Notes under the pieces: generated by a model | What the model saw: the letters and a program-made list of their open reading frames with translations, nothing else | Told to the model about the DNA's origin: nothing | Databases searched by the model: none | In this document: piece after piece, positions 1 through 15,475 of the stretch | Layout of the letters: each line of letters starts with the position of its first letter | Numbering within the stretch: position 1 is the stretch's first letter | Source of the DNA: an uncultured Collinsella sp. | Lineage (GTDB): Bacteria; Actinomycetota; Coriobacteriia; Coriobacteriales; Coriobacteriaceae | Assembly: GCA_934654605.1 (NCBI GenBank) | Contig: CAKUGH010000034.1 | Location: 1 to 15,475 of the forward strand | Reading direction: 5' to 3' | Length of the DNA stretch: 15,475 nt | Translations under genes and position numbers: made by a program

Positions 1-147
1 GTGCAGGATATTGCCGATACCCTCACCGGCAACGACCCCATTAGCGCGAGCGGCAACGAGGCACCCGATTACTACAAGGACCACAACGTGACCTGGAGTA
101 ACCGCCGCAACCAAAAGAACTCGCCCGCGGGGGACGGGGATAACTAG
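1..147 (+). CDS. 3' end of an unidentified protein gene (partial)
   Basis: Frame 1 is open from the window edge to a TAG at 145-147 and gives a hydrophilic 48-residue tail rich in Asn, Asp and Lys, ending in SPAGDGDN. A perfect hairpin terminator starts 8 bases after the stop, which supports a real gene end. The true start lies outside the window. The tail shows no domain, membrane segment or recognisable motif, so no function can be given. It converges with the minus-strand gene at 195-707. Confidence 0.6.
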   Translation: MQDIADTLTGNDPISASGNEAPDYYKDHNVTWSNRRNQKNSPAGDGDN

Positions 148-1094: not shown

Positions 1095-1889
1095 ATGGAT
1101 ACCAAAGCATTAAAGAAGCAGATGGGCGCCGCCATCGCCATGGTGCTCGTGGCAGCCGTAGCCCTCGGCTCCGCCACGTTCGCATGGTTTGTGAGCAACA
1201 ACAAGGTTGATGCCACGACCAGCAAGATTTCTGCTCAGTCGAATTCTGCGTTCATGTATATCTATGACGAAAATAGTACCAGTGCCACCAAAACTGACCA
1301 GCGTGCCGATCAGTCGTCCGTGAAGGATACTCCGCTTTATCCTGCCCACTGGGCTTGCACCGGTGAAACTGACGTCTATGCAACTCCCGGCAATTTTTAC
1401 ACCGCATTCGGTGCCAGCGCCGATAAAAGCGTCATGAGCACCGATGGCGCGACCCTTGTTCCCGAGTCGGGAGATAAGGGTGCGGGTTCGGTTGAAGCTG
1501 CCGTCGCCGGGCAATATGCTGTCAAAAATACATTCAAGATTGGCTCCAAGGGCGCTGATCTTCAGAATCTTATTGTTAAGGAAGCATCTATTAAAGATGG
1601 CGGAACGGACAACGCTCAGTTTGATAACGCGCTCCGTGTTCTTGTGAAGTGTGGAGATAACTGGGTTCTTTGTGACAAGGACGGTGTGAAGGCCGCTTCT
1701 AACACTGACAATAAGCTTACTGATACGGTTTCGTCTACATCGGAAACTACGGTTGATATGTATGTCTTTTACGATGGTGACGATAGCAACGTCTATACGA
1801 ACAATCTTGAGAACCTGAAGAAGGCTTCCAAGCGCATCAACGTTGTATTCACTGCCACCTCTACTCAGACGGACAAGAAGGCCAACTAG
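1095..1889 (+). CDS. Secreted fibre-subunit-like protein with SipW-class signal peptide (cluster A, first gene)
   Basis: The 264-residue product begins with a basic n-region (MDTKALKKQ), a hydrophobic core at about residues 11-25 and the motif GSATFAWF (25-32), the hallmark of signal peptides cleaved by SipW-type signal peptidases. The mature part is hydrophilic, Ser/Thr/Asp-rich and predicted to be beta-rich, as in TasA/camelysin-like fibre proteins. An 'ALRVLV' strand (about 179-184) and a C-terminal DMYVFYDGDDSNVYTNNL (221-238) align with the other five secreted proteins of the window, but Asp replaces the Glu of their EGxD motif. The ATG at 1095 follows GAAAGGGG (1082-1089). Residues 1-50 are nearly interchangeable with those of the next gene. 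No sortase signal is present. No signal peptidase gene lies beside it; the likely processing enzyme is the one at 12128. Its exact role as major or minor subunit is unknown. Confidence 0.8.
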   Translation: MDTKALKKQMGAAIAMVLVAAVALGSATFAWFVSNNKVDATTSKISAQSNSAFMYIYDENSTSATKTDQRADQSSVKDTPLYPAHWACTGETDVYATPGNFYTAFGASADKSVMSTDGATLVPESGDKGAGSVEAAVAGQYAVKNTFKIGSKGADLQNLIVKEASIKDGGTDNAQFDNALRVLVKCGDNWVLCDKDGVKAASNTDNKLTDTVSSTSETTVDMYVFYDGDDSNVYTNNLENLKKASKRINVVFTATSTQTDKKAN

Positions 1890-1959: not shown

Positions 1960-2904
1960 TTGAGCGTTAAGCAGATGAAAAAACAGCTTACAGTCGCAGC
2001 CTTGTCTGTCGTTATGGCAGCAGTTGCGCTTGGTTCTGCAACGTATGCCTGGTTCGTTTCGAACACAAAGGTTGATGGCACTACCAGCACCGTAAGCGCT
2101 CAGGCGAACGGAATGGTCCTCCAGATTGCGCCCGGCAAGAATGCCTTTCATGACGGCAGTGATCACCAAACGACCGCCGCAAGCACTGGTCATGAAATCA
2201 GTCCGTCCTCCACGGACGATGCTCATAGCTGGTTTGTACCAAAATCATGGAACGGTACAGATGTAAGCGGTTATCAAAAGGCAGCGATTTCCAAGCAGCT
2301 TGAGGGTTCTTATACGCTCAAGGGGGACACCGAGACTTATTACGCCTATACCATGGCGGAATATACGCTCTATACGATTAACCAGACTGGTGAGGCTGAC
2401 GTCTATCTCGACAACAGCAGTTCGAACGGCCCCGTTGTTGTGACTGCGTCGGAAGGCGCTTCGCGAGATTGGTTCAATAAAATCAAAGGTAGCCTTCGCG
2501 TGGGCCTGTTGATCGACGATGAGCTCAAGGTCGTCTACGCTCCCGTCCTTCCGACTGGCAAGGGAAATGATGTCTCTGCCACCGAAGGTTGGAGCTGCGT
2601 GAATTCAGACAACCTTTCGGTGACCATGGCACCGTCTTATGCCCATGTGTATGGCGGCAACATGGTTGACCAGAACAACAAAAACTGGGGAGCAACCGGA
2701 AACGGTGACTCCTACGTAAAGCCGACGGGCGATGCACAGATGCTCGCTCACGTTGGCTATAACGGCACTAACTTTAAGGTCGTCATTTGGATGGAGGGCA
2801 CCGACAACGATTGCCAGAATATGTCTGGCCTCGATGTTGGCGAGGGAAGCCCGACCTTCGACGTACTGGTCAGCCTGGTCGGCATCGTGCCCGATTCCAA
2901 GTAG
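1960..2904 (+). CDS. Secreted fibre-subunit-like protein with SipW-class signal peptide (cluster A, second gene)
   Basis: A TTG start is chosen from the AGGAGG seven bases upstream, giving 314 residues. The signal sequence has MSVKQMKKQ, a hydrophobic core at about 11-25 and GSATYAWF (25-32). The first 50 residues closely match the preceding gene, so the two arose by duplication, but the rest has diverged and is 50 residues longer. The mature region contains a 'SLRVGLL' strand (178-184) and the C-terminal motif VVIWMEGTDNDC (274-285), both shared with the cluster B proteins. The product should be exported and cleaved near Ala-Trp-Phe, and may form or decorate a surface fibre like TasA/camelysin. 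It is bracketed by terminators on both sides, so it may depend on read-through from 1095. Codon use is less GC-biased than in cluster B. Confidence 0.8.
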   Translation: MSVKQMKKQLTVAALSVVMAAVALGSATYAWFVSNTKVDGTTSTVSAQANGMVLQIAPGKNAFHDGSDHQTTAASTGHEISPSSTDDAHSWFVPKSWNGTDVSGYQKAAISKQLEGSYTLKGDTETYYAYTMAEYTLYTINQTGEADVYLDNSSSNGPVVVTASEGASRDWFNKIKGSLRVGLLIDDELKVVYAPVLPTGKGNDVSATEGWSCVNSDNLSVTMAPSYAHVYGGNMVDQNNKNWGATGNGDSYVKPTGDAQMLAHVGYNGTNFKVVIWMEGTDNDCQNMSGLDVGEGSPTFDVLVSLVGIVPDSK

Positions 2905-4571: not shown

Positions 4572-5165
4572 CTACGCCCGCAGCGCTCCGATGGGGAACA
4601 CGTAGACGTCGTGCTCGGCGTCGTAGCGGCAGAAGGGCGAGGTTGCGGTGATGACGGCGCAGAACTCCGGTTGAGGGTTGCGTGCGGCGGGGTTCAGAGC
4701 GACCTTGCGGCGCAGGCGCTCGATATTGCGGATTCCGTCGCTTACCGTGGATTCGCCGAGCTTGATTTCTATCGCTGCCCAGCGGCCATCGTTCAGCTCG
4801 ATGATGGCGTCAACTTCGAGCCCGTCTGAGTCGCCATAGTAGTGGAGCGAGCACGAATGCGAGCCGGGCAGGCATGCGGTGTAGACGCTCAGGTCGTGAA
4901 CGCACAGAGACTCAAAGAGCAGGCCAAAAGTCTGGCCGTCCGCAAGGAGCCTCTGGGGATTCATGCCAAGCGCGGCCGCGGGAATGGAAGGGTCGGCAAA
5001 ATAGCGCTTTGGCTTGGTGCGCAGGCGGGACTTTGCGCGGACGGGCGCATCCCAACCGGGCAGATTGACGATCGTATACATGCTCTCAAACATATCGAGG
5101 TAAAACGCCACGGTCGAAGCCGCCGGCTGGGCGTCGCTGTCGCCTAAGGCCATCCTCCGCAACAA
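4572..5165 (-). pseudogene. 5'-truncated ATP-binding DUF4143-family protein (C-terminal half only)
   Basis: The 197 codons match the C-terminal half of DUF4143-type AAA ATPases, which are normally about 400-430 residues. The recognisable features are the AVRAKSRLR-like stretch before KPKRYFADPSIPAAALGM, LLFESLCVHDLSVY, and the DGLEVDAIIELNDGRWAAIE segment followed by IKLG, which resembles a nuclease-like E-x-K strand. The ending VYVFPIGALRA is intact. The N-terminal ATPase domain with its Walker A motif is missing: the frame is closed by TGA three codons before the first TTG (5163-5165), and the only ATG nearby abuts its own GGAGG. A segment near MLRRMALGDSDAQPAASTV also looks shortened against the family. 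I regard it as a remnant; a shortened expressed protein cannot be excluded. Confidence 0.65.
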
Positions 5166-5579: not shown

Positions 5580-6278
5580 CTACAGGTAGATTCCCTCGCA
5601 TAGGGTTTTGTGGAATTGGGTGTGGTGGTCGCGTGCCCAGGTAAAGAGCGTTTGGTCAAAGTCACCCTGAGTGGCGGGGATGCCATAGACGCCGGCGACT
5701 TCCACGCGCACGAACTCCAGTGCGGGCAGCTTGTTGATGGCCGTGAGCGCAAACGGCGACGTGGGCTCTTCGAACAGGTAATGGCTGCCTTGCAGCGCGC
5801 CGCAGCCGGTGCACGTGCTGGCGAGCGATGCGGTCTTGGTGGTGCGCGACGTGACGGGCTTGTAGCCGCAGCGCTGGTGCAGGTAGTCGCGGATCTCGGC
5901 CGGCACACAGCCCAGCGCGGAGACAATGGCCACGGCGTTGGCGCGGCTGGTGTCGATCGCGACGTGGCCCGCGTCGTCCATGGCGGGCGCATCGCTGGAC
6001 GAGGCCTTGCTGCCCGAGCCCTCGGCCGCCAAATACGGAATGCCAAAGGCCGCGACCGTGGTCTGCTCGTGGCACCTCCAGCATTCGCGCTTGCCCAGCA
6101 CCAGGTAGATGTAGGGCGCGCTGGGGTCGGAGCGATCCACGCCGGGCAACCACGCGGCAAAGGGCTCGGGGTTGACGCCATCGGGCACGTACCAGATCTT
6201 CTTGGCCCGGTCCCACTTGGCGCCCAGGGCCTTGGCCTCGTCTTTGTGCGAAAAGGGAACATCGAGCTCGGTGCGCAT
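5580..6278 (-). CDS. DUF5710-domain protein with two zinc-knuckle pairs
   Basis: The start is ATG 6276-6278, five bases after AAAGGAG (6284-6290 on the plus strand), giving 232 residues; a longer open frame upstream has no such site and resembles non-coding DNA. Residues 3-35 (TELDVPFSHKDEAKALGAKW, then IWYVPDG) match the DUF5710 domain, a small module common in plasmid and phage DNA-processing proteins. CWRCH (Cys66, Cys69, His70) and CTGCG (Cys156, Cys159) probably bind zinc. A low-complexity Ser/Ala linker covers about 86-100. The C-terminus ARDHHTQFHKTLCEGIYL is strictly kept in the duplicated fragment at 5260. A nucleic-acid-binding role is plausible from the zinc knuckles and the DUF5710 context, but no enzymatic residues are evident. 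Confidence 0.75.
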   Translation of the reverse strand: MRTELDVPFSHKDEAKALGAKWDRAKKIWYVPDGVNPEPFAAWLPGVDRSDPSAPYIYLVLGKRECWRCHEQTTVAAFGIPYLAAEGSGSKASSSDAPAMDDAGHVAIDTSRANAVAIVSALGCVPAEIRDYLHQRCGYKPVTSRTTKTASLASTCTGCGALQGSHYLFEEPTSPFALTAINKLPALEFVRVEVAGVYGIPATQGDFDQTLFTWARDHHTQFHKTLCEGIYL

Positions 6279-6400
6279 GGCGGCTCCTTTGTGCGGCTTG
6301 CGGTGCATGTGCTCCAAGGATACCCCAGCGGTAGGCGTGTGGTCGCTGGGCGAGCGTTTTGCACGCTCGAGAGGTCGCGGAACATTTTGGCGAGGGCGCG

Positions 6401-6473
6401 CCGTCAAGCAAATGGGCAAGTAAATGGTCAGCTTTTGGTCAGTTGAGCGGCAACCTTGCCAAAAGCTTGACGG
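6401..6473. repeat. Two interlocked 9-bp inverted repeats in a divergent promoter region
   Basis: CCGTCAAGC (6401-6409) pairs with GCTTGACGG (6465-6473), and AGCTTTTGG (6430-6438) pairs with CCAAAAGCT (6459-6467). The right arms overlap, so the two hairpins or operators exclude each other. A direct repeat TGGTCAG also occurs at 6425-6431 and 6436-6442. The site lies in the 317-bp region between the divergent genes at 5580-6278 and 6596-7699, which otherwise shows no gene. Confidence 0.4.
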
Positions 6474-6580
6474 ATTTGCATTTAGACGTCGACGAATGAA
6501 CACTTTGGTTGCGCCGCAGCAAAAAATCGCCGGTCGTTTGCCGAAAACTCAGCAGGGCCGCCGCCTGTCGCCGGCGTGCG

Positions 6581-6589
6581 TGCTATCTT
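6581..6589 (+). promoter_or_regulatory. Extended -10 promoter predicting a leaderless mRNA
   Basis: TG-c-TATCTT at 6581-6589 is an extended -10 of the TANNNT type. Its 3' end is only 6 bases before the ATG at 6596, exactly where transcription would begin. No ribosome-binding site precedes this ATG. Leaderless genes with TANNNT boxes seven or so bases ahead are well known in Actinobacteria. Confidence 0.5.
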
Positions 6590-6595
6590 CGCGCC

Positions 6596-7699
6596 ATGAG
6601 CTACTTCATCGTTTCACATAGCGCTGCCTTGGCGCTCTTGGCGCATATTCCGAACCCGCGCTTTGGGGATTCGGAACCAGAGGTTGTGTCGATTGCAGGT
6701 GCCTGTGCGCTCTGTGACCAAGAGGCGCAGGAGTTTATCGATCGCTACGACCTTGGGATCGACGTGCTGGACCTGATGGTGCCGACGCGTGCCGGTCGCC
6801 GGCGGACCAAGCACGTAGCGACGCACCTGTGTACCAACGAGCTCCCGGCGGGTTCGTTTATCTCGCTGGGCCACTGGAGAGGCGACCTGGATGCGTATGT
6901 GTGCTCTCCCGAGCTGGCGTTTTTGCAAGCCGCGCACGACGGCGATGCACCGGAGGCTATCTATGCCGGTTATGCCATGACTTCGGACTATCGACTGGAT
7001 AATCTTGCTCCCGGCGGGGTGACCAGCAGGGATAAGGGCATGCGCGATGGAAAGCTTACGACCAAGGAGCTCATTGCGGCGTATATCGAGAAGTCCCCCA
7101 AGGTGCGAGATATTGCGAAAGCCAAGGCATTGCTTGCGTACGTGATTGAGGGGTCGCGCTCGCCAAGGGAGTCGGGGCTTTGCATGTTTATGTCGCTGCC
7201 TACGCGCTACGGCGGATATGCATTGGGTAAGGCCGAGCTGAACAAGAAGTACTATATTCGCGATGGATACAGCGTTGGACGCAAGCGCGAGCTTCGCGTG
7301 TTGGAGCGCACGCCCGACATTACGCTTACGGCAAAAGCCGAGGTGGGCATGGATAAAGTAAGGGCCGGACTGCTGCCCGAAGTGCTTACCGCGCTGGTCG
7401 ATTACGACAGCGACGCTATCCACGACGGGCGCGAGAAAATCCGTAAGGACGCCGAGCGCCGTAACGAGTTGCAACTGCTCAATGGGGTGGCCTACTTTAC
7501 GGTGACGACCGACCAGGCAAGTGACTACGACAAGCTCGTTAGGCTGTGCGAGCGCATTCGGCGCAAGCTGCATCGGAATAAACGCCCCATCTTTAACAAG
7601 GCAATGAACGAGGAGCAGCGATATCTCGCTCTTGCGCGCGTCGAAACGAAGCGGTTTAAGCTTTGGCAAACCGTAATCGAGGCGCATCGGCATTGGTAG
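6596..7699 (+). CDS. Coriobacterial protein with a Vsr/DUF559-like nuclease-fold C-terminus
   Basis: The start ATG 6596 (MSYFIVSH) gives 367 residues; the frame is open for 29 codons upstream, but those codons read as Arg-rich junk without a start signal, and a -10 box lies there instead. The middle has GSRSPRESGLCMFMSLPTRY followed by GGYALGKAELN (about 210-240), a block I associate with a large Coriobacterial family. The end carries LVDYDSDAIHDGREKIRKDA and a region LNGVAYFTVTTDQ, resembling the central D-x-D strand and following strand of Vsr/DUF559-type PD-(D/E)XK folds, but the expected lysine is not evident. An N-terminal half related to AbiEi-like regulators is possible and unproven. 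It may be a defence or toxin-antitoxin-related protein. It is read divergently from the DUF5710-type gene and is followed by a palindromic element. Confidence 0.65.
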   Translation: MSYFIVSHSAALALLAHIPNPRFGDSEPEVVSIAGACALCDQEAQEFIDRYDLGIDVLDLMVPTRAGRRRTKHVATHLCTNELPAGSFISLGHWRGDLDAYVCSPELAFLQAAHDGDAPEAIYAGYAMTSDYRLDNLAPGGVTSRDKGMRDGKLTTKELIAAYIEKSPKVRDIAKAKALLAYVIEGSRSPRESGLCMFMSLPTRYGGYALGKAELNKKYYIRDGYSVGRKRELRVLERTPDITLTAKAEVGMDKVRAGLLPEVLTALVDYDSDAIHDGREKIRKDAERRNELQLLNGVAYFTVTTDQASDYDKLVRLCERIRRKLHRNKRPIFNKAMNEEQRYLALARVETKRFKLWQTVIEAHRHW

Positions 7700-7737: not shown

Positions 7738-7917
7738 AGGTCTAATACTTTTCCCGAGAAGTGAACGAGTCAAAATGGACCCCCGAAGCATCGACACTTT
7801 TGGAGGCTCGTTTCCTGCGGTTTTGTCGTTGGAATCCTGCGGTTTTGACGCCGAAAAGTGTGGGTGCTTCGAGGGCCCAAATAAGGTCGTTCACTTCTCG
7901 GGAAAAGTATTAGACCT
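7738..7917. repeat. 180-bp palindromic element with perfect 31-bp terminal inverted repeats
   Basis: AGGTCTAATACTTTTCCC and the next 13 bases (7738-7768) are perfectly complementary to 7887-7917. Inside, shorter complementary blocks (CGAAGCA with TGCTTCG, ACACTTTT with AAAAGTGT) extend the symmetry, and the centre has the direct repeat CCTGCGGTTTTG twice. The transcript would fold into one long hairpin. It carries no gene, and no clear target duplication is visible. It looks like a MITE-like or REP-like non-autonomous repeat, and lies between the nuclease-fold gene and a degenerate repeat tract. Confidence 0.75.
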
Positions 7918-7958
7918 GATTATAGTATGGTCGATCGGATGCGACTGTGAGGCCCATT

Positions 7959-8168
7959 CGGGCTTGATCGGGGCGGTCGACAAGGCCGTTTGGGCGATTT
8001 TGGTTCGGTTGGGGTGCCGGCTGGCGGTGTGGAAGCGGGCTTGGGCTTGGCTGGGCTGGTTTGCGCCGGTGTAGAAGTGACTTTGGGCTTGGTTGGGGCA
8101 GCCGTCGGTGGTGCCGGGGCGGTTTTGGGCTTGGGTGGGGTGATTGCCGGCGTTGTTGGGGCGGCCTT
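7959..8168 (-). repeat. Degenerate 42-bp tandem repeat encoding Lys-Pro-rich 14-residue units on the minus strand
   Basis: GGGCTTGG recurs at 8043, 8085 and 8127, exactly 42 bases apart, with diverged units at 8001 and near 7960. Read on the minus strand in the frame 7920-8177, the units translate as KPKTAPAPPTAAPT, KPKVTSTPAQTSPA and KPKPASTPPAGTPT, then decay. A possible GTG start (8175-8177) has a weak AAGGCGGC in front. The frame ends two bases outside the 180-bp palindrome. It is probably the remnant of a proline-rich linker or wall-spanning segment; an expressed 85-residue peptide is less likely. Confidence 0.55.
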
Positions 8169-8201
8169 GGGTGCCACGCCGCCTTCATGGCTTGCCGGCG
8201 T

Positions 8202-8237
8202 AAAACAAAACAGCTCAGAGGCGAAGCCTCTGAGCTG
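8202..8237 (-). terminator. Intrinsic terminator of the tRNA-Val gene
   Basis: On the minus strand a perfect 12-bp stem (8226-8237 with 8211-8222) and a 3-base loop are followed by TTTTGTTTT (8202-8210). It begins 9 bases after the CCA end of the tRNA. Confidence 0.9.
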
Positions 8238-8245
8238 CGAACATT

Positions 8246-8320
8246 TGGTGGGCGTTACAAGATTTGAACTTGTGACCTCTTCCGTGTCAGGGAAGCGCTC
8301 TCCCCCTGAGCTAAACGCCC
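8246..8320 (-). tRNA. tRNA-Val, anticodon GAC
   Basis: On the minus strand the acceptor arm GGGCGTT (8314-8320) pairs with AACGCCC (8250-8256), followed by discriminator A and an encoded CCA (8246-8248). The D arm has AGCTCAGGGGGAGAGC. The anticodon stem CTTCC/GGAAG encloses the loop CTGACAC, so the anticodon is GAC, reading GUC and GUU. The T arm contains GTTCAAATC. The whole gene is 75 nucleotides. It has its own promoter and terminator. No duplicated 3' end suggesting an integrated element was found in the window. Confidence 0.95.
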
Positions 8321-8349
8321 GATCAAGGGTGCGCGAGTGCGCAGGAAAT

Positions 8350-8378
8350 AATATAACGGAGCTCCCACCCAGTGGCAA
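8350..8378 (-). promoter_or_regulatory. Promoter of the tRNA-Val gene
   Basis: On the minus strand, -35 TTGCCA (8373-8378) and -10 TATATT (8350-8355) are separated by exactly 17 bp. Transcription would start near 8343, leaving a leader of about 23 bases before the mature tRNA. This is the best sigma-70-type promoter in the window. Confidence 0.75.
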
Positions 8379-8484
8379 GAACTATTTTTAAAATCCGGCG
8401 ATTTATGACCCCGTCGGAGCCCGCCGCAGCGCGAACAGCACGCGAAAAGTCTCGTTTGTATACCCGATGAGCTGCACCTTCGCG

Positions 8485-8490
8485 TAAAAT
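8485..8490 (+). promoter_or_regulatory. Candidate -10 element of fibre cluster B
   Basis: TAAAAT lies 61 bases before the ATG at 8551 and would start transcription near 8497. I find no good -35 at the right distance, so this is tentative. No other promoter-like site is evident between here and the right edge, where all genes run in the same direction. Confidence 0.3.
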
Positions 8491-8550
8491 GGTTCCATTA
8501 TGGGCAAATGGTGCCCAGGCAGTTTACAACGCGGCATTTGGGGGAGGGGC

Positions 8551-9435
8551 ATGTCGGAAGCGCGCTCGCTGCGAAAACAGTTCAATCGCATGCTTGCCAC
8601 ATTGCTGGTGGCCCTTGCTGCTGCTGGAGCCGTAACGTACGCCTGGTACATCTACAACGCCAACCGCCACATCACCGACGTCAAGATGGCGGCGGGCACG
8701 GGCGTCACCTTCCTGATCTCCAACGAATACGACGGCGAGTACAAAACCAACGCCGGCCTGAGCTTTGCGGGCCTGCTCGATCCCGTCTCGACCGACAACG
8801 TGCTTAACGGCTTTCAAAAGGTAACGGGCTTTACCGGCGGAACCACGCAGGACTCGCTGTTTGCCAGCATGTTCGGTGCCGCGGAACATTCCGACTACTA
8901 CAAGACCTCCCTGTACCTGGCCACCAACTCGGCTGCGACTGATGTGTACCTTTCGGGCATCGACTTTACCGAGCAGGACCCGGCAAACCCCATCTCCACT
9001 GCCCTGCGCGTGGGACTGGTAGCCTATGCCCCGGGCAAAAGCGATACCGTAACGGGCCAGTACATCTTTGAGGTCTCGAGCGCCCGCAACCCCCAGGCGC
9101 ACTACAACACGCTCGACGGCAAAGATGCCGGCGAGAGCGAGCAGGACCACCTGGTGCTTGACAGCACCCGCTCCGATGGAACAACGGTTCATTTTGACCA
9201 GCTGACCAGCGCAAGCTTCTGCGACTACAACGAAGACACCGGCATCGTGAGCCTCAAGGAGGCCACGACCAAGATCTGCAGCCTGCCTGCCGCCGCCAAG
9301 GATGCCGACCGCAGCACGCCCGTGCGCGTGGACGTGTACGTGTGGCTGGAAGGCTGCGATCCCGACTGCACCAATAACCTGGCCGCTACCAGCCTGCAAT
9401 CGCTGGCGCTGCGCTTTGCCGGTAAGCGTTCGTAA
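8551..9435 (+). CDS. Secreted fibre-subunit-like protein with SipW-class signal peptide (cluster B, first gene)
   Basis: The ATG at 8551 follows GGGGGAGGGG (8540-8549), a far better context than the upstream in-frame ATG at 8500; the product is 294 residues. The n-region RSLRKQF, the hydrophobic core at about 14-27 and VTYAWY (28-33) form a SipW-class signal peptide. The mature region has DPVSTDN (77-83), a YYKTSLYL strand (116-123), ALRVGLVAY (151-159), QYIFEVSS (170-177) and the C-terminal DVYVWLEGCDPDC (261-273). Cys269 and Cys273 in that motif, with Cys224 and Cys243, could make disulfides after export. It is the first of four paralogous genes; the next starts 10 bases after its stop, so they are probably co-transcribed. 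Likely a fibre or pilus-like surface subunit. Confidence 0.8.
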   Translation: MSEARSLRKQFNRMLATLLVALAAAGAVTYAWYIYNANRHITDVKMAAGTGVTFLISNEYDGEYKTNAGLSFAGLLDPVSTDNVLNGFQKVTGFTGGTTQDSLFASMFGAAEHSDYYKTSLYLATNSAATDVYLSGIDFTEQDPANPISTALRVGLVAYAPGKSDTVTGQYIFEVSSARNPQAHYNTLDGKDAGESEQDHLVLDSTRSDGTTVHFDQLTSASFCDYNEDTGIVSLKEATTKICSLPAAAKDADRSTPVRVDVYVWLEGCDPDCTNNLAATSLQSLALRFAGKRS

Positions 9436-9445
9436 GGGGGCAGGC

Positions 9446-10282
9446 ATGAGTGCATCGAACATCAAAGACATCCTGAGCTCGCGTCGCCGCATGGTGGCCG
9501 CTGCCGCATGGATGCTGGTGCTGGTCGCCGCCCTGAGCGCTGCCACCTATGCCTGGTTTAGCAACTCGCGCTACACCAACGTGACCCCCGTGGCGCATAC
9601 GGTAAGCGACGAGGGTTCGGACCTGCAGATTGGCCTTTCGGCCAACGGCCCCTGGGACACGACGGCCACGCTTGCTGCGGTCGACAAGACACTCTATCCC
9701 ATCTCGACGGCCGACCTTTCCCGTTTTTGGCGCGGCACCTTCCAAAACGCCGCGGGCATCACGACCGACTATGCCGACTGCACCGCGCAGCTGGACGACT
9801 ATGCCCTCACCGGTACGCTGTACCTTAAAGGCAGCGACAGCGCCCTCAACGTGTATCTGTATCAGGGCCAGATGAGCGTGACGAGCGATCCGCAGCTGCT
9901 GGCCGCGCTGCGCCTGGGTCTGGTCATTACGACCCAGTCGGGCACGCAAACGCATATCTTTACCTGCGACGATCTGGGCAACACCTCGGGCGCCACCAGT
10001 AGGCGTACCACCGCGCAAGACGGCGTGGTCGTGGCGCCCGGTGCCTCGGGCTGGACCTACGCCGCCGATCCCGCACGCGCCATAAGCGCCTACAGCATGG
10101 ACGGCACCGGCGACACGCCCACAGCGCGCGCAGGCGCCACGCCCATCTGCACGCTGGCCGCCAACGAGGTGGCAAGCGTTCGCTACGTTGTGTACATGGA
10201 AGGCTGCGACGCCAATTGCATCGACGAGGCTCAGGCCCGCGGTGTGGTGCTGCAGCTTGCCTTTGCCGCGGCCAAGGCATAA
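9446..10282 (+). CDS. Secreted fibre-subunit-like protein with SipW-class signal peptide (cluster B, second gene)
   Basis: The ATG at 9446 sits behind AAGGGGGCAGG, giving 278 residues. The signal sequence has SSRRRM, a hydrophobic core at about 16-31 and SAATYAWF (31-38). The mature part repeats the family pattern: LYPISTADL (83-91), TGTLYLKG (122-129), a LAALRLGLVIT strand (152-162), HIFTCDD (170-176) and the C-terminal YVVYMEGCDANC (247-258) with paired cysteines. An expected role is a secreted structural subunit processed by the signal peptidase of the same cluster. It begins 10 bases after the previous stop and ends 13 bases before the next start. Codon use is strongly GC-biased, as in its neighbours. 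No anchoring signal (LPxTG or C-terminal helix) is present. Confidence 0.8.
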   Translation: MSASNIKDILSSRRRMVAAAAWMLVLVAALSAATYAWFSNSRYTNVTPVAHTVSDEGSDLQIGLSANGPWDTTATLAAVDKTLYPISTADLSRFWRGTFQNAAGITTDYADCTAQLDDYALTGTLYLKGSDSALNVYLYQGQMSVTSDPQLLAALRLGLVITTQSGTQTHIFTCDDLGNTSGATSRRTTAQDGVVVAPGASGWTYAADPARAISAYSMDGTGDTPTARAGATPICTLAANEVASVRYVVYMEGCDANCIDEAQARGVVLQLAFAAAKA

Positions 10283-10295
10283 GGGGGCGAGCTAA

Positions 10296-11276
10296 ATGCA
10301 CAAGAATAAGCACATGCAGGTAGGCGCCAGCGAGTCCGCGGGCGCAACCCCGGGGACCGTACCCGCCGCTGCCGTCGAGCGCGCTGTGGGTTCGGACTCC
10401 GCCGCCCGCCGCCACGCCCGCCGCGCGCGTGCCTACATCGCGCTCGTCATGGTGGCGCTCGCGGCCACCCTGGGCGCCGCGACCTACGCGTGGTTCACTA
10501 GCAACATGAAGGTCAACACCAACTCGGTGAGCGTGCACAGCGACACGTCCAAGCTGGTCCTGGAGCTGGGCGATGCCGATGCCGGCAGTTGGTCGCAGCA
10601 AGGTGACGCATCCCTGGCCTCCACCGCGAGCGGGGCCGCGACGCTCTATCCGGTCTCGACCTTCGACCTCAACGGCTTTGCAGCCTGCGCGCAGAACAAT
10701 TCCAGCGGCGACGCCACGGTGTTTGAGCAGGCAAAAGACAATGGCTCCGCCTACTATCACGGCTGGATCGACCTGCGTCCCACCATCACGGGCACGGGTG
10801 CCAGCAAGGTCAAGGGCAAGGTGAGCCTGTATCTGGCCGAGTCGCTGGTCCCGCAGGGCGCCGACGCCGAGCTGCTGCGCGCGGCCCGCGTGGGCATCAA
10901 GATCTCGAGCGGCGGCCAGGTGCTCGCCACCAACATTTTTGAGCTCGACAGCTCCGACAGCGGCCATCGCGGCGAGCATCCCACGACCGCCCCGGCTGGC
11001 CTTGCCGGCTACACCGACGGCATGCTGCTGGGCTGGCAAAACGGCCAGCTCGCCTGCGGCGCAGATGTGAAGCAGGACCCGGCCGCCTTTACCCTGGACG
11101 CCAGCGAGACGGCCGCGCGTCCGCAAAACACGCTCGCCACGCTGGCACTGGGTCAGACCTATCGCCTGGACATCTATTACTACATCGAGGGGACCGACCC
11201 CGATAGCGCCGACTACCTGCACCAGGACCCGGGCACCCTGCATCTGGCCCTCTTTGCGACCTTGGACGGTGAGTAG
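10296..11276 (+). CDS. Secreted fibre-subunit-like protein with a long cytoplasmic n-region (cluster B, third gene)
   Basis: The ATG at 10296 follows GGGGGCGAG (10284-10292) and gives 326 residues. Unlike its relatives it has about 45 residues before the hydrophobic core, mostly Ala/Gly-rich and then Arg-rich (RRHARRARA, 38-46). The core is about 47-60 and the SipW-type motif GAATYAWF is at 60-67. LYPVSTFDL (117-125), KVSLYLAES (176-184), AARVGIKISS (196-205), NIFELDSSD (213-221) and the C-terminal DIYYYIEGTDPDS (292-304) match the family, although Ser replaces the second Cys of the EGxDxxC motif. The coding sequence ends 2 bases before the next ATG, so translation is probably coupled. It might be a special subunit such as an anchor, since the extended n-region would remain on the cytoplasmic side until cleavage. 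Confidence 0.75.
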   Translation: MHKNKHMQVGASESAGATPGTVPAAAVERAVGSDSAARRHARRARAYIALVMVALAATLGAATYAWFTSNMKVNTNSVSVHSDTSKLVLELGDADAGSWSQQGDASLASTASGAATLYPVSTFDLNGFAACAQNNSSGDATVFEQAKDNGSAYYHGWIDLRPTITGTGASKVKGKVSLYLAESLVPQGADAELLRAARVGIKISSGGQVLATNIFELDSSDSGHRGEHPTTAPAGLAGYTDGMLLGWQNGQLACGADVKQDPAAFTLDASETAARPQNTLATLALGQTYRLDIYYYIEGTDPDSADYLHQDPGTLHLALFATLDGE

Positions 11277-11278
11277 CC

Positions 11279-12067
11279 ATGACACGTAAGCAACTCGCTG
11301 CCACCGGCAAGCCCAACGCGGCCGCCCCCGCCGACACCGACCTGCGCCGCAAGCTCACCACCACCGTGGTCCTGGTCCTGTTCGCCCTGGTGGCGATAGC
11401 CATGGCGACCTTCGCCTGGTTTTCCATCGCCGATAGCGCCAAGACCCGCATGCTCATGATCGACGCCAACGCCGACGGCTCGCTGCGCTTTGACCTGGAC
11501 GAGCACGCCACGTTCGAAGAGTACGTCCACAGCCTGGGCTTCGACCAGATCTCGGCACGCATCGCCAGCGAAAAGGGCGTGGACATCGACGCGTCCAAGC
11601 TCAAGCCCGTCACCACGAGCGACTACCAGACCTTCACCTTCGAGGACAGTTCCACCGCCGATCCCGCCACCGGCGCCTACCTGGAGTTTACGCTGCACTT
11701 TATGAGCAGCACGGACCTGCGCGTGCGCCTGACCGGGCAGGACGGCGACAACGGCGCCTCCGGCACGCGGTTTAGCTCCGACACCGAGGGCATGGCCAGC
11801 GCCATGCGCATGAGCTTTACCGCCGACGGCCAAACCTGGGTCTACAACCCCAACGGGGGCGGCGGCTCATCTGGTTCGGCGACGGTCTTCGGGCTCGGCT
11901 CGGGTGAGGCCACCGCGGCGAGCGACATGTTCGATCTGATAAAGGATACGGACAAGCCGGTAACCGTTCGCATATGGCTCGAGGGAACGGACCCAAGTTG
12001 CACTAATATGCTAAAGGGAGCTAACTATTCGGTTTCGATGCGCTTTGAGGGCATCGAGGAACAGTAG
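11279..12067 (+). CDS. Secreted fibre-subunit-like protein with SipW-class signal peptide (cluster B, fourth gene)
   Basis: The ATG at 11279 lies 2 bases after the previous stop and gives 262 residues. A Pro/Ala-rich n-region ends in DLRRKL, followed by a hydrophobic core at about 28-41 and MATFAWF (42-48). This is the most divergent of the cluster B set: the middle has AYLEFTLHFMSSTDLRVRL (133-151), AMRMSFTADG (175-184) and a Gly-rich turn (193-200), but the C-terminus TVRIWLEGTDPSC (229-241) is typical. The last 140 bases use less GC-rich codons (ATA, CTA, AGT, GGA) than the rest, hinting at an exchanged C-terminal segment. It directly precedes the signal peptidase gene, with a 60-bp gap holding a GC-rich hairpin. 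Confidence 0.8.
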   Translation: MTRKQLAATGKPNAAAPADTDLRRKLTTTVVLVLFALVAIAMATFAWFSIADSAKTRMLMIDANADGSLRFDLDEHATFEEYVHSLGFDQISARIASEKGVDIDASKLKPVTTSDYQTFTFEDSSTADPATGAYLEFTLHFMSSTDLRVRLTGQDGDNGASGTRFSSDTEGMASAMRMSFTADGQTWVYNPNGGGGSSGSATVFGLGSGEATAASDMFDLIKDTDKPVTVRIWLEGTDPSCTNMLKGANYSVSMRFEGIEEQ

Positions 12068-12076
12068 ATACGCACG

Positions 12077-12092
12077 GCGGCCGCCCGGCCGC
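12077..12092 (+). other. GC-rich intercistronic hairpin before the signal peptidase gene
   Basis: GCGGCC (12077-12082) pairs with GGCCGC (12087-12092) around a 4-base loop. No T-tract follows, so it is not a standard terminator. It could stabilise or process the mRNA and set different levels of subunits and peptidase. Confidence 0.35.
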
Positions 12093-12127
12093 ACACGACC
12101 TAGTCAGACACGGTAGTAAGGGACATC

Positions 12128-12877
12128 ATGCAATCTGTTAAAAAAGTCGCATCCATCGCACTGAGCGTCGTCATGTGGATCATCATCCTGGTGGCGGCCC
12201 TGTATGCGTTTACCACGCTCGCCACGCGCGAGGACGGCAGCGTCTCCGACATCGCCGGCTTCACCCCGCTCGCCGTGCAGTCCGACTCCATGTCGCCCAC
12301 GTTTAACAAAGGCGACCTCATCGTCATCCAAAAGTGCGACACCTCCAAGCTCGAGGTGGGCGACATCGTGACGTTCCACACCATCATCGACAACGAGTAC
12401 GCGCTCAACACGCACCGCATCGCCGCGATCGACGAGGTCAACGGCATGCGCAGCTTTACCACCAAGGGCGACAACAACGACGTGGCCGATACGCACATCA
12501 TTAGCGACGGCGACATTGTGGGCAAGTACCTGTTTGCGCTGCCGCAGATGGGCAAGGTCATGGACTTCCTGTCCAGCTCTATGGGCTTCCTCATTGTGAT
12601 CGTGCTGCCCATGCTGCTGTTCTTTATCTACCAGGTGTACCACCTTATCGTGGTGGGCATGAACCTTAAGCGCGCTATGGCCGAGGAGGATCGCCTGGCC
12701 GCCGCGGCTGCCATCGTGGACGCCGAGGGCAAGGGCACCGCTGCCACCGTCACGGCCGATAACGCCGCCGAGCAGCTCGCCCAGGCCGAGGCCAAGCTCG
12801 AGGAAGCCCGCCGTTTGAAGGCCGAGGCCGAGGCGGCGATGAACGCAAGCAAGCAGGAGGGCACCGACGGTGAGTGA
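12128..12877 (+). CDS. sipW: SipW/ER-type signal peptidase I with a cytoplasmic coiled-coil tail
   Basis: This 249-residue membrane protease should cleave the signal peptides of the fibre proteins. An N-terminal membrane helix (about 7-27) leads to VQSDSMSPTFNKGDLIVI with catalytic Ser54, then VGDIVTF (77-83), NTHRI with His96 replacing the bacterial general-base Lys, and TKGDNND (Asp115, Asp118). The Ser-His arrangement is the ER/SipW type rather than the usual Ser-Lys bacterial enzyme. A second helix (about 152-178) is followed by a charged tail whose last 45 residues (AEQLAQAEAKLEEARRLKAE) look like a coiled coil. In Bacillus subtilis SipW processes TasA and TapA; the gene name is used here by analogy. 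The ATG is preceded by AGTAAGGGA (12114-12122). Its stop overlaps the start of the ATPase gene, which links the two translationally. Confidence 0.9.
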   Translation: MQSVKKVASIALSVVMWIIILVAALYAFTTLATREDGSVSDIAGFTPLAVQSDSMSPTFNKGDLIVIQKCDTSKLEVGDIVTFHTIIDNEYALNTHRIAAIDEVNGMRSFTTKGDNNDVADTHIISDGDIVGKYLFALPQMGKVMDFLSSSMGFLIVIVLPMLLFFIYQVYHLIVVGMNLKRAMAEEDRLAAAAAIVDAEGKGTAATVTADNAAEQLAQAEAKLEEARRLKAEAEAAMNASKQEGTDGE

Positions 12878-14570
12878 GTTTCTGGGATTTGCCTGGGAGC
12901 TGCTGGCAAAGGTCGTCTACAACGTCGTTGCCGTCGTGAGCTCCATCCTTAACCTGCTGGTGTTTGGCTGGGTTGAGTACTTCAACATCTTTATGACCTA
13001 CTTCACCACGTTTGACCTGGTGGGCAAGATCGGCGCGGTCATTCTGTTTGCCATGCTCATCGCGGTCCCCGTGCTGATCGTGGCTATCCTTGTGCACCGC
13101 TATCGCATCAACCGCCGCCTACATCGCGACGACACGTCCAACAAGGCGCTCTACCGCGAGATCGGTCGCCTGAACAAGCAGGTGCTCGACCTCATGGACG
13201 AGAAGAACAAGCTGCTGGCGCTCAAGGTCAACGCCATGGGCGGCACCAAGCAGATTCCGTACGTGGGCGCCTCGGCCCTGGCCGACGACCACCTGCCCAC
13301 GGTGGGCAACGTCGTGGGTGCCGCTGCGGGTGCCGGTGCTGCCGCGGGCGAGGGCGCCGCGGCGACGGCCGTCATGTCGGGCAACGCGTCGCTCGCGCTC
13401 GACGGCGAGGGCGTCAAAGATGCCGCAGCTGCCATGGCCAAGGCCACCGTCGAGGCCAAGACCCTTGCCGAGGAAAAAGAGATCGCCCAGGCCAACCGCT
13501 TCCCCAAGCTTTCGCTCGTGGACCTCAAGTACCGCGACTGGGAGTCCCCGGTCTACGACGACGCCATCTCGCTGGAGGACTTTGTCGACAGCTTCCGCGC
13601 GTTTGCCTGCAGCCAGATGAAGCTCTACTACACGCCCGAGATCATCCGCCGCTTTGTGGCCGGCATGGCCGCCTCCAAGCTGCTGATCCTGGAGGGCATC
13701 TCGGGTACCGGTAAGACCTCGCTGCCCTACAGCTTTAGCCGCTACCTGGACAACCCCGCGACCATCGTGTCGGTGCAGCCGAGCTTCCGCGACCGCACCG
13801 AGGTGCTCGGCTACTTTAACGAGTTCTCCAAGCGCTTCAACGAGACCGAGTTCCTCCGCGCCGTGTACGAGGCGGGTCTGCGCCAGGACCCGTCCATGAT
13901 CGTGCTCGACGAGATGAACCTCGCCCGCGTGGAGTACTACTTTGCCGAGATCCTGTCGGTGCTCGAGATGCCCAGCCACGACGAGTGGGTACTCGACCTG
14001 GTGCCCACCCAGTGGGCCGCCGACCCCAAGGCGCTCCACGACGGCAAGCTCACCATCCCCGACAGCCTGTGGTTCATTGGCACGGCCAACAACGACGACT
14101 CCACCTTTACCATCACGGACAAGGTGTACGACCGCGCGATCCCCATCGAGCTTAACGAGCGCGCCGACGCGTTTGAGTGTGAGCCACACGAGCGCGTGCA
14201 CGTGACGGCCGACCACCTGCAGTATCTGTTCCAAAAGGCCAAGGTCGAGTACGTGATCGACGACGAGCTACTGCAGAAGATGCACAAGCTGGACCAGTAC
14301 CTGCAGACCCGCTTTAAGCTTGCGTTTGGCAACCGTATCATCAAGCAGATGTACGACTTTATCCCCGTGTACGTGGCGTGCGGCGGCACCGAGCTGGGCG
14401 GCATGGACTACATCATCGCCCGCAAGGTGCTCAAGAAGTTTGAGTCCATGAACGTGAGCTTTGTGCGCGACGAGATGAAGGGCCTGATCGAGTACATCGA
14501 GAAGACCTTTGGCGAGGGCGGCCTGCCCGATTCCGTCATGTACCTGCAGCGGATCCAGAACTTCTACTAA
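12870..14570 (+). CDS. Membrane-anchored McrB-like AAA+ ATPase
   Basis: A GTG start nine bases after AGGAGG (12855-12860) overlaps the signal peptidase stop by 8 bases and gives 566 residues. Two predicted membrane helices (about 15-35 and 54-75) are followed by a coiled coil (about 90-120), an Ala/Gly linker (149-168) and another helical stretch. The AAA+ domain starts near 245: Walker A GISGTGKT (276-283), Walker B MIVLDEMN (343-350), the McrB-type continuation LARVEYYFAEILSVLE, sensor GTANNDD (404-410) and DRAI (421-424). McrB proteins hydrolyse GTP or ATP and power an McrC-type partner in type IV restriction. Here the usual N-terminal DNA-binding domain is replaced by a membrane anchor. 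The DUF2357 gene begins 84 bases downstream and is the expected partner. Soluble McrB proteins normally lack membrane helices, so this architecture is unusual. Confidence 0.85.
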   Translation: MSEFLGFAWELLAKVVYNVVAVVSSILNLLVFGWVEYFNIFMTYFTTFDLVGKIGAVILFAMLIAVPVLIVAILVHRYRINRRLHRDDTSNKALYREIGRLNKQVLDLMDEKNKLLALKVNAMGGTKQIPYVGASALADDHLPTVGNVVGAAAGAGAAAGEGAAATAVMSGNASLALDGEGVKDAAAAMAKATVEAKTLAEEKEIAQANRFPKLSLVDLKYRDWESPVYDDAISLEDFVDSFRAFACSQMKLYYTPEIIRRFVAGMAASKLLILEGISGTGKTSLPYSFSRYLDNPATIVSVQPSFRDRTEVLGYFNEFSKRFNETEFLRAVYEAGLRQDPSMIVLDEMNLARVEYYFAEILSVLEMPSHDEWVLDLVPTQWAADPKALHDGKLTIPDSLWFIGTANNDDSTFTITDKVYDRAIPIELNERADAFECEPHERVHVTADHLQYLFQKAKVEYVIDDELLQKMHKLDQYLQTRFKLAFGNRIIKQMYDFIPVYVACGGTELGGMDYIIARKVLKKFESMNVSFVRDEMKGLIEYIEKTFGEGGLPDSVMYLQRIQNFY

Positions 14571-14585
14571 GCGCGTGCGGGGCGT

Positions 14586-14614
14586 GGGATAAGGCGACCA
14601 GTAGTCCTTGTCCC
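14586..14614 (+). other. Intercistronic hairpin between ATPase and DUF2357 genes
   Basis: GGGATAAGG (14586-14594) pairs with CCTTGTCCC (14606-14614) with one G-U pair and an 11-base loop; the flanking GGCG/CGCC bases could extend it. No T-tract follows. It may slow decay or processing of the mRNA; transcription probably continues into the next gene. Confidence 0.35.
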
Positions 14615-14654
14615 GCGCGCCTTCCCCCGATCGATCCAACCTATGGAGTAACCC

Positions 14655-15475
14655 ATGTCCGAGACCATTCAGGACCTCTATACCAGCTTCTCCGAGCAGA
14701 TGGAGCCCATCCAGGAGGACAGCCGCTACTTCCGCTATCTCTTTGAGATGGCGCAGGCCTCGGGCACCACGATCGAGCAGCAGCGCGAGGAGCTCGTCAA
14801 GGTGGTGGACGAGGAATGGATCAGCATGATCGAGGACTCGCTCGACGCCATCAACACTATTATCGAAAAGCCGCGCCGCTTCATCACCACTGAGGAAGAG
14901 GTGGTGCCGGTCTCGCTCGCCAAAAAGATCAGCGCCGACAGCGTCCGTCACCTCAGCCAGAACACGCAGTTTTTGGCGCCGAGCGACGATGGCGGCGTCC
15001 ATCCCACGCGCATCCTCAACGTCAACACCGTCGAGACGTACGACCTGTACGAGAACCGCTTCATCTACCACCTGATTCAGCGCCTGCTGACGTTTGTGGA
15101 CAAGCGCACCGACGTGATCTTTTGGTCGACGGGCAACGAGATCCGCAACCGCTTTAAGATGCACAGCAAGATCGACGACGCGTACGAGGAGATCGAGTAC
15201 AACGTCGAGATGACGGTCAAGAACCGCCAGAGCTTTGCCGAGAACGACGCCGACAACATGGACGTCTTTATGCGTATCGACCGCGTGCGCCGCCTGGTCA
15301 TGGCGTTGCGCGGCGCGTCGTTCTGCCAGATCATGAACGGCTGCAGTGCGGTCCGCAGCCCCATCCAGCGCACCAACCTCATCATGAAGGACCCCAATTA
15401 CCGCAAGTGCTACCAGCTGTGGCAGTTTATGGAGCGCTACGACAAGGTGGGCTACAACATCGACGTGCAGCAGCA
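14655..15475 (+). CDS. DUF2357-family McrC-like protein (5' part, runs off the window)
   Basis: The ATG at 14655 follows TATGGAG (14643-14649), and 273 codons are visible before the right edge. The sequence matches the N-terminal and middle region of DUF2357 proteins, which pair with McrB-like ATPases and usually end in a PD-(D/E)XK nuclease domain. Recognisable blocks are EKPRRFITTEEEVVPVSLAK (71-90), VNTVETYDLYENRFIYHLIQ (123-142, with the family ENRF core) and RSPIQRTNLIMKDPNYRK (234-251) followed by LWQFMERY. The catalytic part would lie beyond the window and cannot be checked. No membrane helix or signal peptide is seen, so it is probably cytoplasmic and recruited to the membrane by the ATPase. 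Codon use matches cluster B, so the gene belongs to the same unit. Confidence 0.8.
   Translation, partial: MSETIQDLYTSFSEQMEPIQEDSRYFRYLFEMAQASGTTIEQQREELVKVVDEEWISMIEDSLDAINTIIEKPRRFITTEEEVVPVSLAKKISADSVRHLSQNTQFLAPSDDGGVHPTRILNVNTVETYDLYENRFIYHLIQRLLTFVDKRTDVIFWSTGNEIRNRFKMHSKIDDAYEEIEYNVEMTVKNRQSFAENDADNMDVFMRIDRVRRLVMALRGASFCQIMNGCSAVRSPIQRTNLIMKDPNYRKCYQLWQFMERYDKVGYNIDVQQ

Follow-up and report, generated by a model that had tools for sequence, protein, structure and literature searches.

We analysed a stretch of 15,475 nucleotides (contig CAKUGH010000034.1, assembly GCA_934654605.1; hereafter the window) from an uncultured Collinsella sp., which carries a compact run of genes for secreted proteins, a signal peptidase, a McrB-like AAA+ nucleoside triphosphatase (NTPase) and a McrC-like DUF2357 protein. 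All are on the + strand: the secreted proteins F1 (8551..9435), F2 (9446..10282), F3 (10296..11276) and F4 (11279..12067), the peptidase SipW1 (12128..12877), the membrane-anchored NTPase (12870..14570) and the DUF2357 protein (14655..15475), whose gene is cut by the window end. A start of F1 at 8551 is favoured over 8500 by its relatives. The intergenic distances from F1 to the DUF2357 gene are 10, 13, 2, 60, -8 and 84 bases, and none of these gaps holds a terminator-like site, both + strand matches within 7900-15475 falling inside genes. The initial annotation had described these seven same-direction genes, with gaps of 2-84 bases and an 8-base overlap between peptidase and ATPase genes, and that description is correct as a whole. 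F1-F4, which it called paralogues, are homologous to one another by profile comparison (hhalign, E 2e-43 to 6e-13). Further to the left, window base 1 aligns with L107:6421 of the Collinsella genome G038, within the gene of a membrane-anchored ectodomain protein (TMecto, L107:5428-6567). The first 147 bases of the window (1..147, + strand) are the last 48 codons and the stop of this gene, the frame-1 translation ending in NRRNQKNSPAGDGDN. The secreted proteins U1 (1095..1889, + strand) and U2 (1960..2904, + strand) are further open reading frames (ORFs) with SipW-class type N-termini (TFAWF in U1) and, in U2, an EGTDNDC motif. In G038 a PilZ gene (L107:4628-5422) lies directly upstream of TMecto, beyond the window edge, and the series PilZ-TMecto-U1-U2 stands upstream of F1 with about 6 kb of other genes between. 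Since this order is seen in G038 and the window opens inside the last part of TMecto, U1 and U2 are part of the same system, and the left boundary drawn in the initial annotation is too short.

The gene association is conserved among relatives, which we examined with profiles for SipW1, SipW2, F, U, PilZ, TMecto, EAL and HD_5 built from the loci themselves. The close loci (group 1) are 30 distinct ones (the window, L003, L005, L007-L032 and L071), the Collinsella genomes G001 (L003 and L006) and G038 (L005 and L105) being each counted once; the sister loci (group 2) are 17 (L072-L088), with ATPase profile scores of 492-570 bits. All 30 close loci have a same-strand signal peptidase. DUF2357 lies at most 400 bases downstream of the AAA gene in 27/27 close loci with at least 500 bases of downstream sequence, L019, L028 and L031 lacking sequence for this count. 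Secreted paralogues are present in 28 of the 30; of the other two, L007 has just 714 bases upstream, and L027 has none in 5.7 kb. The sister loci show an adjacent DUF2357 gene in 17/17, a peptidase in 16/17, a secreted paralogue in 15/17 and, in the stretches first fetched, TMecto in 15/17. TMecto was found on further sequence of the genomes G282 and G080, and L072, with neither secreted paralogue nor TMecto in its first stretch, has both further along (L129). Both groups combined give a signal peptidase in 46/47 loci, a secreted paralogue in 43/47 and DUF2357 within 400 bases in 44/44 with sequence there; the sole locus without peptidase, L087, has only 451 bases downstream of its ATPase gene. 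The run of L071 continues past a second peptidase with PilZ, TMecto, U1 and U2, and the two halves of the system lie on separate contigs of draft assemblies in G001, G067 and G071. Fourteen ordinary McrB loci (L004 and L091-L103, 5 to 19 kb each) served as controls, two more (L104 and L106) having been fetched and excluded for an absent or only 16-bit ATPase match. None of the 14 has a signal peptidase of the SipW1 type or a secreted paralogue. According to the initial annotation the association would be incidental if the pair were usually apart from fibre genes; the opposite was found, with a peptidase and/or a secreted paralogue in 47/47 related loci and 0/14 in the same test of ordinary McrB loci. 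The association of fibre-like genes with the McrB-like/DUF2357 pair is thus real, specific and conserved.

The NTPase consists of a hydrophobic N-terminus, a helix/coil region, a linker and the AAA domain, with the Walker motifs GISGTGKT and IVLDEMN and an NNDD motif of the NxD type. The N-x-D-D signature is present in 51/51 ATPase rows of groups 1 and 2 and of a small group 3 described below; it is not exclusive to them, three of the 14 ordinary McrB rows (L091, L092 and L098) being also N-x-D. The hydrophobic N-terminus has long helices and no FtsB-family Pfam match at E 0.1. The protein reaches no Pfam cut-off; it matches the PADLOC family PDC-M26A at 3e-37, and its residues 243-430 are 35% identical to the other McrB-type protein of G001. 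A structure model (mean predicted local distance difference test score of 65) matches the AAA domains of RavA, MCM, dynein and McrB. Since the ATPase profile (A1) found no match among PDB sequences at 0.01, the kinship with McrB rests on the fold class, the DUF2357 neighbour, the PADLOC match and the 35% identity to the G001 protein.

The partner protein matches PF09823 at 49.9 bits (Pfam cut-off 23.3), and a full-length relative (L003:5841-8087) has DUF2357 as its sole domain match. Relatives have a core of some 360 residues and then a coiled coil of variable length, and 8 of the 17 sister-group partners have only 381-406 residues, without the long coil. Within the window's clade, coiled coils are seen by eye in the alignments of both the McrB- and the McrC-like proteins. 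Matches of the partner profile (A2) in the PDB (apolipoproteins, vimentin, TolA and others) were set aside as arising through the coiled coil, not the DUF2357 core. The PDDEXK nuclease domain (PF04411) was not found in the six partners scanned (L003, L012, L073, L079, L086 and the group-3 locus L089). The other McrC of G001 combines DUF2357 with PDDEXK_7 (87.6 bits) and adjoins, by eye, a DNA-methylase-like gene. Both Collinsella genomes with a fibre locus carry another McrB-like gene (L004:3679-8879; G038:C4), and the A1 profile has no McrB-like match in the other 63 Coriobacteriaceae genomes.

The ectodomain protein TMecto has one membrane helix, preceded in the window's clade by a conserved tail, and its ectodomain shares an EGxDxDC-type motif with the secreted paralogues. 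Of 299 genomes from the family to which G066 (the source of locus L010) belongs, 19 have TMecto (E 2e-19 or better), and these are the same 19 that carry a group-1 or group-2 ATPase; the 280 others have none. Presence is partly built in for the 9 of the 19 genomes that supplied rows to the TMecto profile, the other ten and the 280 absences being independent; we disregarded a weak match in G316 (20.6 bits, E 3.7e-4). Directly upstream of TMecto stands a gene of cyclic di-GMP (c-di-GMP) type in 30 of 32 cases (PilZ 15, EAL 5, HD_5 10). In group 1 it is a same-strand PilZ gene in 15/15 (L010, L012, L014-L017, L019, L022, L027, L030, L071 and L107-L110); the group-2 neighbour is EAL in 5/17 and HD_5 in 10/17, with other genes in L078 and L088. 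Pfam confirms PilZ in L010, L027, L071 and L107 (L107:4628-5422 matching PF07238 at 38.9 vs 22.5 bits), EAL in L073, L074, L075 and L077, and HD_5 in L076, L079, L080 and L082-L087. A whole-genome search with PF07238 also matches the PilZ genes of L108, L109 and L110; the remaining PilZ cases, L129 and L130 were identified by the locus-built profiles only. By eye, 12/12 aligned PilZ proteins of the window's clade have the RxxxR and DxSxxG residues, which we take to be the c-di-GMP motif of PilZ. The PilZ, EAL, HD_5 and TMecto profiles gave nothing above 30 bits in the 16 control loci (L004, L091-L104 and L106).

Among 65 Coriobacteriaceae genomes, PilZ occurs in two, the same two that hold the ATPase. 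In five of six genomes searched, the sole PilZ above the cut-off adjoins TMecto; in the sixth, G173, the locus PilZ was missed by the whole-genome search and yet scores 37.0 bits when scanned as a protein. As these six genomes have 6 to 22 GGDEF matches each, c-di-GMP can probably be made in them, and since the only PilZ above the cut-off stands beside TMecto in five, the system may be a main c-di-GMP output there. The EAL proteins beside TMecto in L073 (11270-12145) and L074 (6171-6950) appear by eye degenerate at the usual catalytic motifs and may be c-di-GMP receptors rather than enzymes. The HD_5 proteins shown retain HD...GYP-like residues. The conserved tail before the one membrane helix of TMecto, together with an EAL or HD_5 neighbour in place of PilZ in the sister loci, could be read as a surface sensor, in which the fibre and the ectodomain protein signal contact inward to the AAA/DUF2357 ring, which in turn sets (through EAL or HD_5) or reads c-di-GMP turnover. 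We regard such a sensor as very improbable: the neighbour in the window's clade is a PilZ protein whose conserved residues fit a read-out of c-di-GMP, and a ring NTPase is costly for sensing alone.

SipW1 is a signal peptidase of the endoplasmic reticulum (ER)/archaeal type, matching TIGR02228 at 113.5 bits (cut-off 51.85); with its aligned relatives it matches human SEC11A at 1.6e-15, and it falls below the Bacillus SipW equivalog NF046067 (96.7 vs a cut-off of 190 bits). S54, H96 and D115 are invariant across 25 rows of SipW1 and SipW2. Its C-terminal tail, rich in A/E/K/R, is likely a cytoplasmic coil. A second signal peptidase, SipW2, follows the DUF2357 gene in relatives (L003:5137-5844, L005:14041-14748), wherever sequence suffices among the close loci and in some with a 4-base overlap. 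The 8-base overlap of peptidase and AAA genes, shared by Collinsella and several Bacillota loci, the likely coil stretches on both proteins and the presence of RavA-type remodelers within the AAA fold class would suit a role in regulated export or membrane-protein handling: the AAA protein would extract cleaved signal peptides or misprocessed precursors, or time the peptidase, with the secreted proteins as mere substrates and no fibre required. This account seems unlikely to us. It leaves the phyletic match of TMecto and the c-di-GMP-type neighbours unexplained, and in many sister-group loci the only peptidase seen lies downstream of DUF2357 and does not adjoin the AAA gene.

All six secreted proteins of the window (U1, U2 and F1-F4) have a Y/F-A-W-F/Y motif. 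F1 has a membrane/signal N-terminus, a beta-sandwich model and an EGCDPDC motif. The signal peptide model TIGR04088 (cognate_SipW) matches F3 only, weakly, at 15.7 bits under a cut-off of 19, and U1 has a weak Arch_flagellin match (18.5 bits, below the cut-off). A U1-profile protein also follows PilZ-TMecto in L071, L107, L108, L109 and L110, with U2 directly after it in L071, L107 and L109. A Foldseek search of known structures with the F1 model returned nothing at 0.001; the ten best structural rows are all TasA, FimA or Sulfolobus filament subunits. The F1 profile had a single match among PDB sequences, at E 0.94, which we took as chance, and no chain below E 0.9. In the Lachnospiraceae loci L012 (4641-5483) and L010 (4451-5317), a prepilin peptidase gene (A24_N_bact) stands just upstream of F1.

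Taken together, we consider it reasonably probable that the locus encodes a surface-fibre assembly machine of Lachnospiraceae-type gut Bacillota, found also in a few Collinsella; this suggests that an old defence engine has been reused to build or control surface fibres. The motor action, the switch and the fibre are what we infer. The secreted subunits would be exported by Sec and then cut by the signal peptidases, while N-terminal helices would tether the AAA ring beneath the membrane and the DUF2357 stalk would activate it in the manner of McrBC. Powered by NTP, the ring may act on the tail of the peptidase, on the ectodomain protein or on the N-termini of the subunits, and in this way load, release or anchor those subunits in a donor-strand fibre. 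Sensed by PilZ (or by the EAL or HD_5 protein), c-di-GMP would turn the machine on or off through the cytoplasmic tail of the ectodomain protein. There is, in our judgement, an even chance of a wider proposition: that a domesticated restriction-type NTPase, nuclease-less and membrane-anchored, is the energy-consuming centre of a separate class of surface-fibre machines gated by c-di-GMP. In this class PilZ, EAL and HD_5 proteins would substitute for one another as the switch in a constant position, and the machine would have been transferred from Bacillota to Collinsella in the gut with its switch included. The TasA-type fibres known from Gram-positive bacteria are thought to assemble extracellularly without a dedicated cytoplasmic motor. 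If true, the proposal would describe a novel means of driving or gating such fibres and plainly illustrate how a defence module can be put to other ends; the locus might also supply gut bacteria with an adhesion factor.

The initial annotation had offered two interpretations, one of an McrBC-like machine put to new use in assembling fibres or in regulated export, the other of an envelope-linked defence system. The conserved gene order, the TMecto phyletic match and the recurrent c-di-GMP-type neighbours support the former; the latter found little support. As anti-phage defence, the fibre-like proteins or the peptidase would detect an attack on the cell surface, to which the McrBC-like pair would respond, perhaps via an unrecognised effector. 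The McrBC ancestry, the match to the PADLOC candidate PDC-M26A and an HNH_2 endonuclease gene between the U and F halves of the window (3036-4118, + strand; PF13391 47.5 bits, PADLOC HNH 8e-13) point in that direction. So do soluble relatives on plasmids and a faecal phage scaffold, which adjoin AAA, helicase-related or unannotated large genes. The flanks of the fibre loci are however poor in defence matches: a PADLOC scan (E 1e-10) of 87 proteins from 21 loci yielded 10 member matches in 7 families, and the scan of 80 proteins from 12 ordinary McrB loci yielded 168 families, the control figure being inflated by overlapping methyltransferase models and by the inclusion of McrC partners, whereas proteins matching the locus-built profiles were excluded from the fibre set. 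Up to 5 flanking ORFs per fibre locus (21 loci) or 8 per control locus (12 of the 14) were taken, of which 87/100 and 80/93 were scanned, overlong and doubtful ORFs being excluded; matching control members were counted for the 25 families shown of the 168. Furthermore, the constant partners are the ectodomain protein and the c-di-GMP-type genes, and the loci as read share no recurrent effector gene. The most likely reading is a surface-fibre machine linked to c-di-GMP, with a nuclease-less McrBC-type core; a defence system is less likely, indeed decidedly unlikely.

Several observations weigh against the fibre machine. The partners of three soluble plasmid relatives (L125-L127) also have no nuclease Pfam match, so that the missing nuclease is by itself no argument against defence; nuclease loss may thus be older than the move to the envelope. 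This slightly lowered our confidence in the fibre machine and slightly raised that in defence. Long branches leave parts of the ATPase tree unsure. Lastly, in the two genomes of group 3, two such ATPases, both with N-terminal hydrophobic stretches, flank one DUF2357 gene (L089:5397-12200, L090:3230-11271), and this AAA-DUF2357-AAA arrangement is without peptidase or secreted paralogues. Its neighbours, which speak for the fibre reading, are of surface type and membrane-anchored, with transglutaminase-like and antigen I/II C2 matches, two of the four neighbour matches (the second C2 and MBG) being under the cut-off; the group-3 operon is possibly another envelope use of the same engine.

Among known systems, McrBC type IV restriction (E. 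coli McrBC; the Collinsella pair L004:3679-7989) likewise places an AAA NTPase and a DUF2357 partner in adjacent genes, and the window ATPase model falls in the structural class of Thermococcus gammatolerans McrB. Unlike McrBC, the window ATPase is membrane-anchored and has the NxD motif, its partner has no nuclease match, and no methylase was seen alongside. With the SipW/TasA fibre systems the window shares an ER/archaeal-type signal peptidase (Ser-His-Asp); the peptidase fails the Bacillus SipW model NF046067. In contrast to TasA/SipW fibres and to archaeal bundling-pilus and 0406 filaments, the system has an AAA machine, a PilZ protein and six diverged secreted paralogues in the window, and its F1 profile reaches no PDB chain below E 0.9 by sequence. 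The soluble relatives of CoCoNuT/PDC-M26 type (plasmids NZ_CP044987.1, NC_008757.1 and NZ_AP017561.1) also show an NxD AAA protein (36-39% identity) followed by a DUF2357-type gene whose product lacks a nuclease Pfam match, but differ in having no predicted membrane helices, large AAA or helicase-related neighbours and, over the stretch examined, neither a signal peptidase nor a secreted paralogue. Another close description is that of CoCoPALM (Bell et al. 2024, PMC11090510): in the part of that paper concerned with it, this group has a McrB-like NTPase with NxD in place of NxxD, fused to an FtsB-like membrane and coiled-coil part and associated with signal peptidase family genes, with coiled coils, usual but not universal, on both the McrB- and the McrC-like proteins. 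The window agrees in its NxD McrB-type NTPase with an N-terminal membrane/coil part, its signal peptidase neighbours and the coils on both proteins. The statement of the initial annotation that no described system joins these elements is to that extent overtaken by the CoCoPALM description (PMC11090510). By title, we found no paper on a locus joining SipW-type genes to McrB/DUF2357, or McrBC/SipW with PilZ, in a literature without most subscription journals and preprints, and none on PDC-M26; among the papers listed for CoCoPALM, the one cited and its preprint treat the subject by title. Our proposal gives the CoCoPALM group, which that part of the paper (PMC11090510) names and defers to later work, a concrete and testable role.

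The nearest relatives of the ATPase are from Collinsella genomes (97-98%). In a tree of 51 of the 65 rows found (16 close, all 17 sister, 4 group-3 and 14 ordinary), the fibre-locus ATPase clade separates from the ordinary McrB rows with 100/100 support, subject to a long-branch caveat, and the window protein and L005 (Collinsella) fall in a 16-row clade (99/100) whose other rows are Bacillota or a genome of the Lachnospiraceae sample; branching inside this clade is weak (90/85). The ATPase occurs in 2/65 Coriobacteriaceae genomes vs 19/299 in the family sample of G066; of 197 Coriobacteriia genomes five match it, only G001 and G038 strongly. Since G066, the centre genome, was the only strong match among 398 genomes sampled across the phylum, the system seems concentrated in Lachnospiraceae and relatives. 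A binning error for Collinsella is unlikely: DNA downstream of the G001 locus matches 12/12 other genomes of the genus searched at least partly, with nearly full-length matches (88-89%) in two. Accordingly the DNA around the locus is genuinely that of Collinsella, and the locus was probably acquired. The ATPase is common in sequence collections: all 8,000 scored candidates passed E 0.001, and among the matches listed, to which our view of the membrane type is confined, the best 120 are 65-69% identical over the full length. Among phage and plasmid records none reaches 80% coverage of the protein, and the four nearest phage and plasmid relatives examined are soluble. One of these lies on MT835511.1 (L128:6702-11247), an unverified scaffold of a faecal phage, on which a DUF2357-type gene accompanies that of a soluble NxD ATPase.

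Between the U and F halves, the HNH_2 protein has a faint similarity, below the cut-off, to the phosphorothioate-DNA restriction family NF045808. It is followed by a DUF4143 fragment (4572-5165, - strand; PF13635 94.5 bits), which is probably a remnant; DUF4143 proteins usually have an N-terminal ATPase part, which the fragment lacks. Beyond it lie a DUF5710 protein (5580-6503, - strand) and a 396-residue protein with no Pfam match at 0.01 (6509-7699, + strand). The window from 5580 to 7699 is mostly 84-94% identical to L107 at the DNA level.

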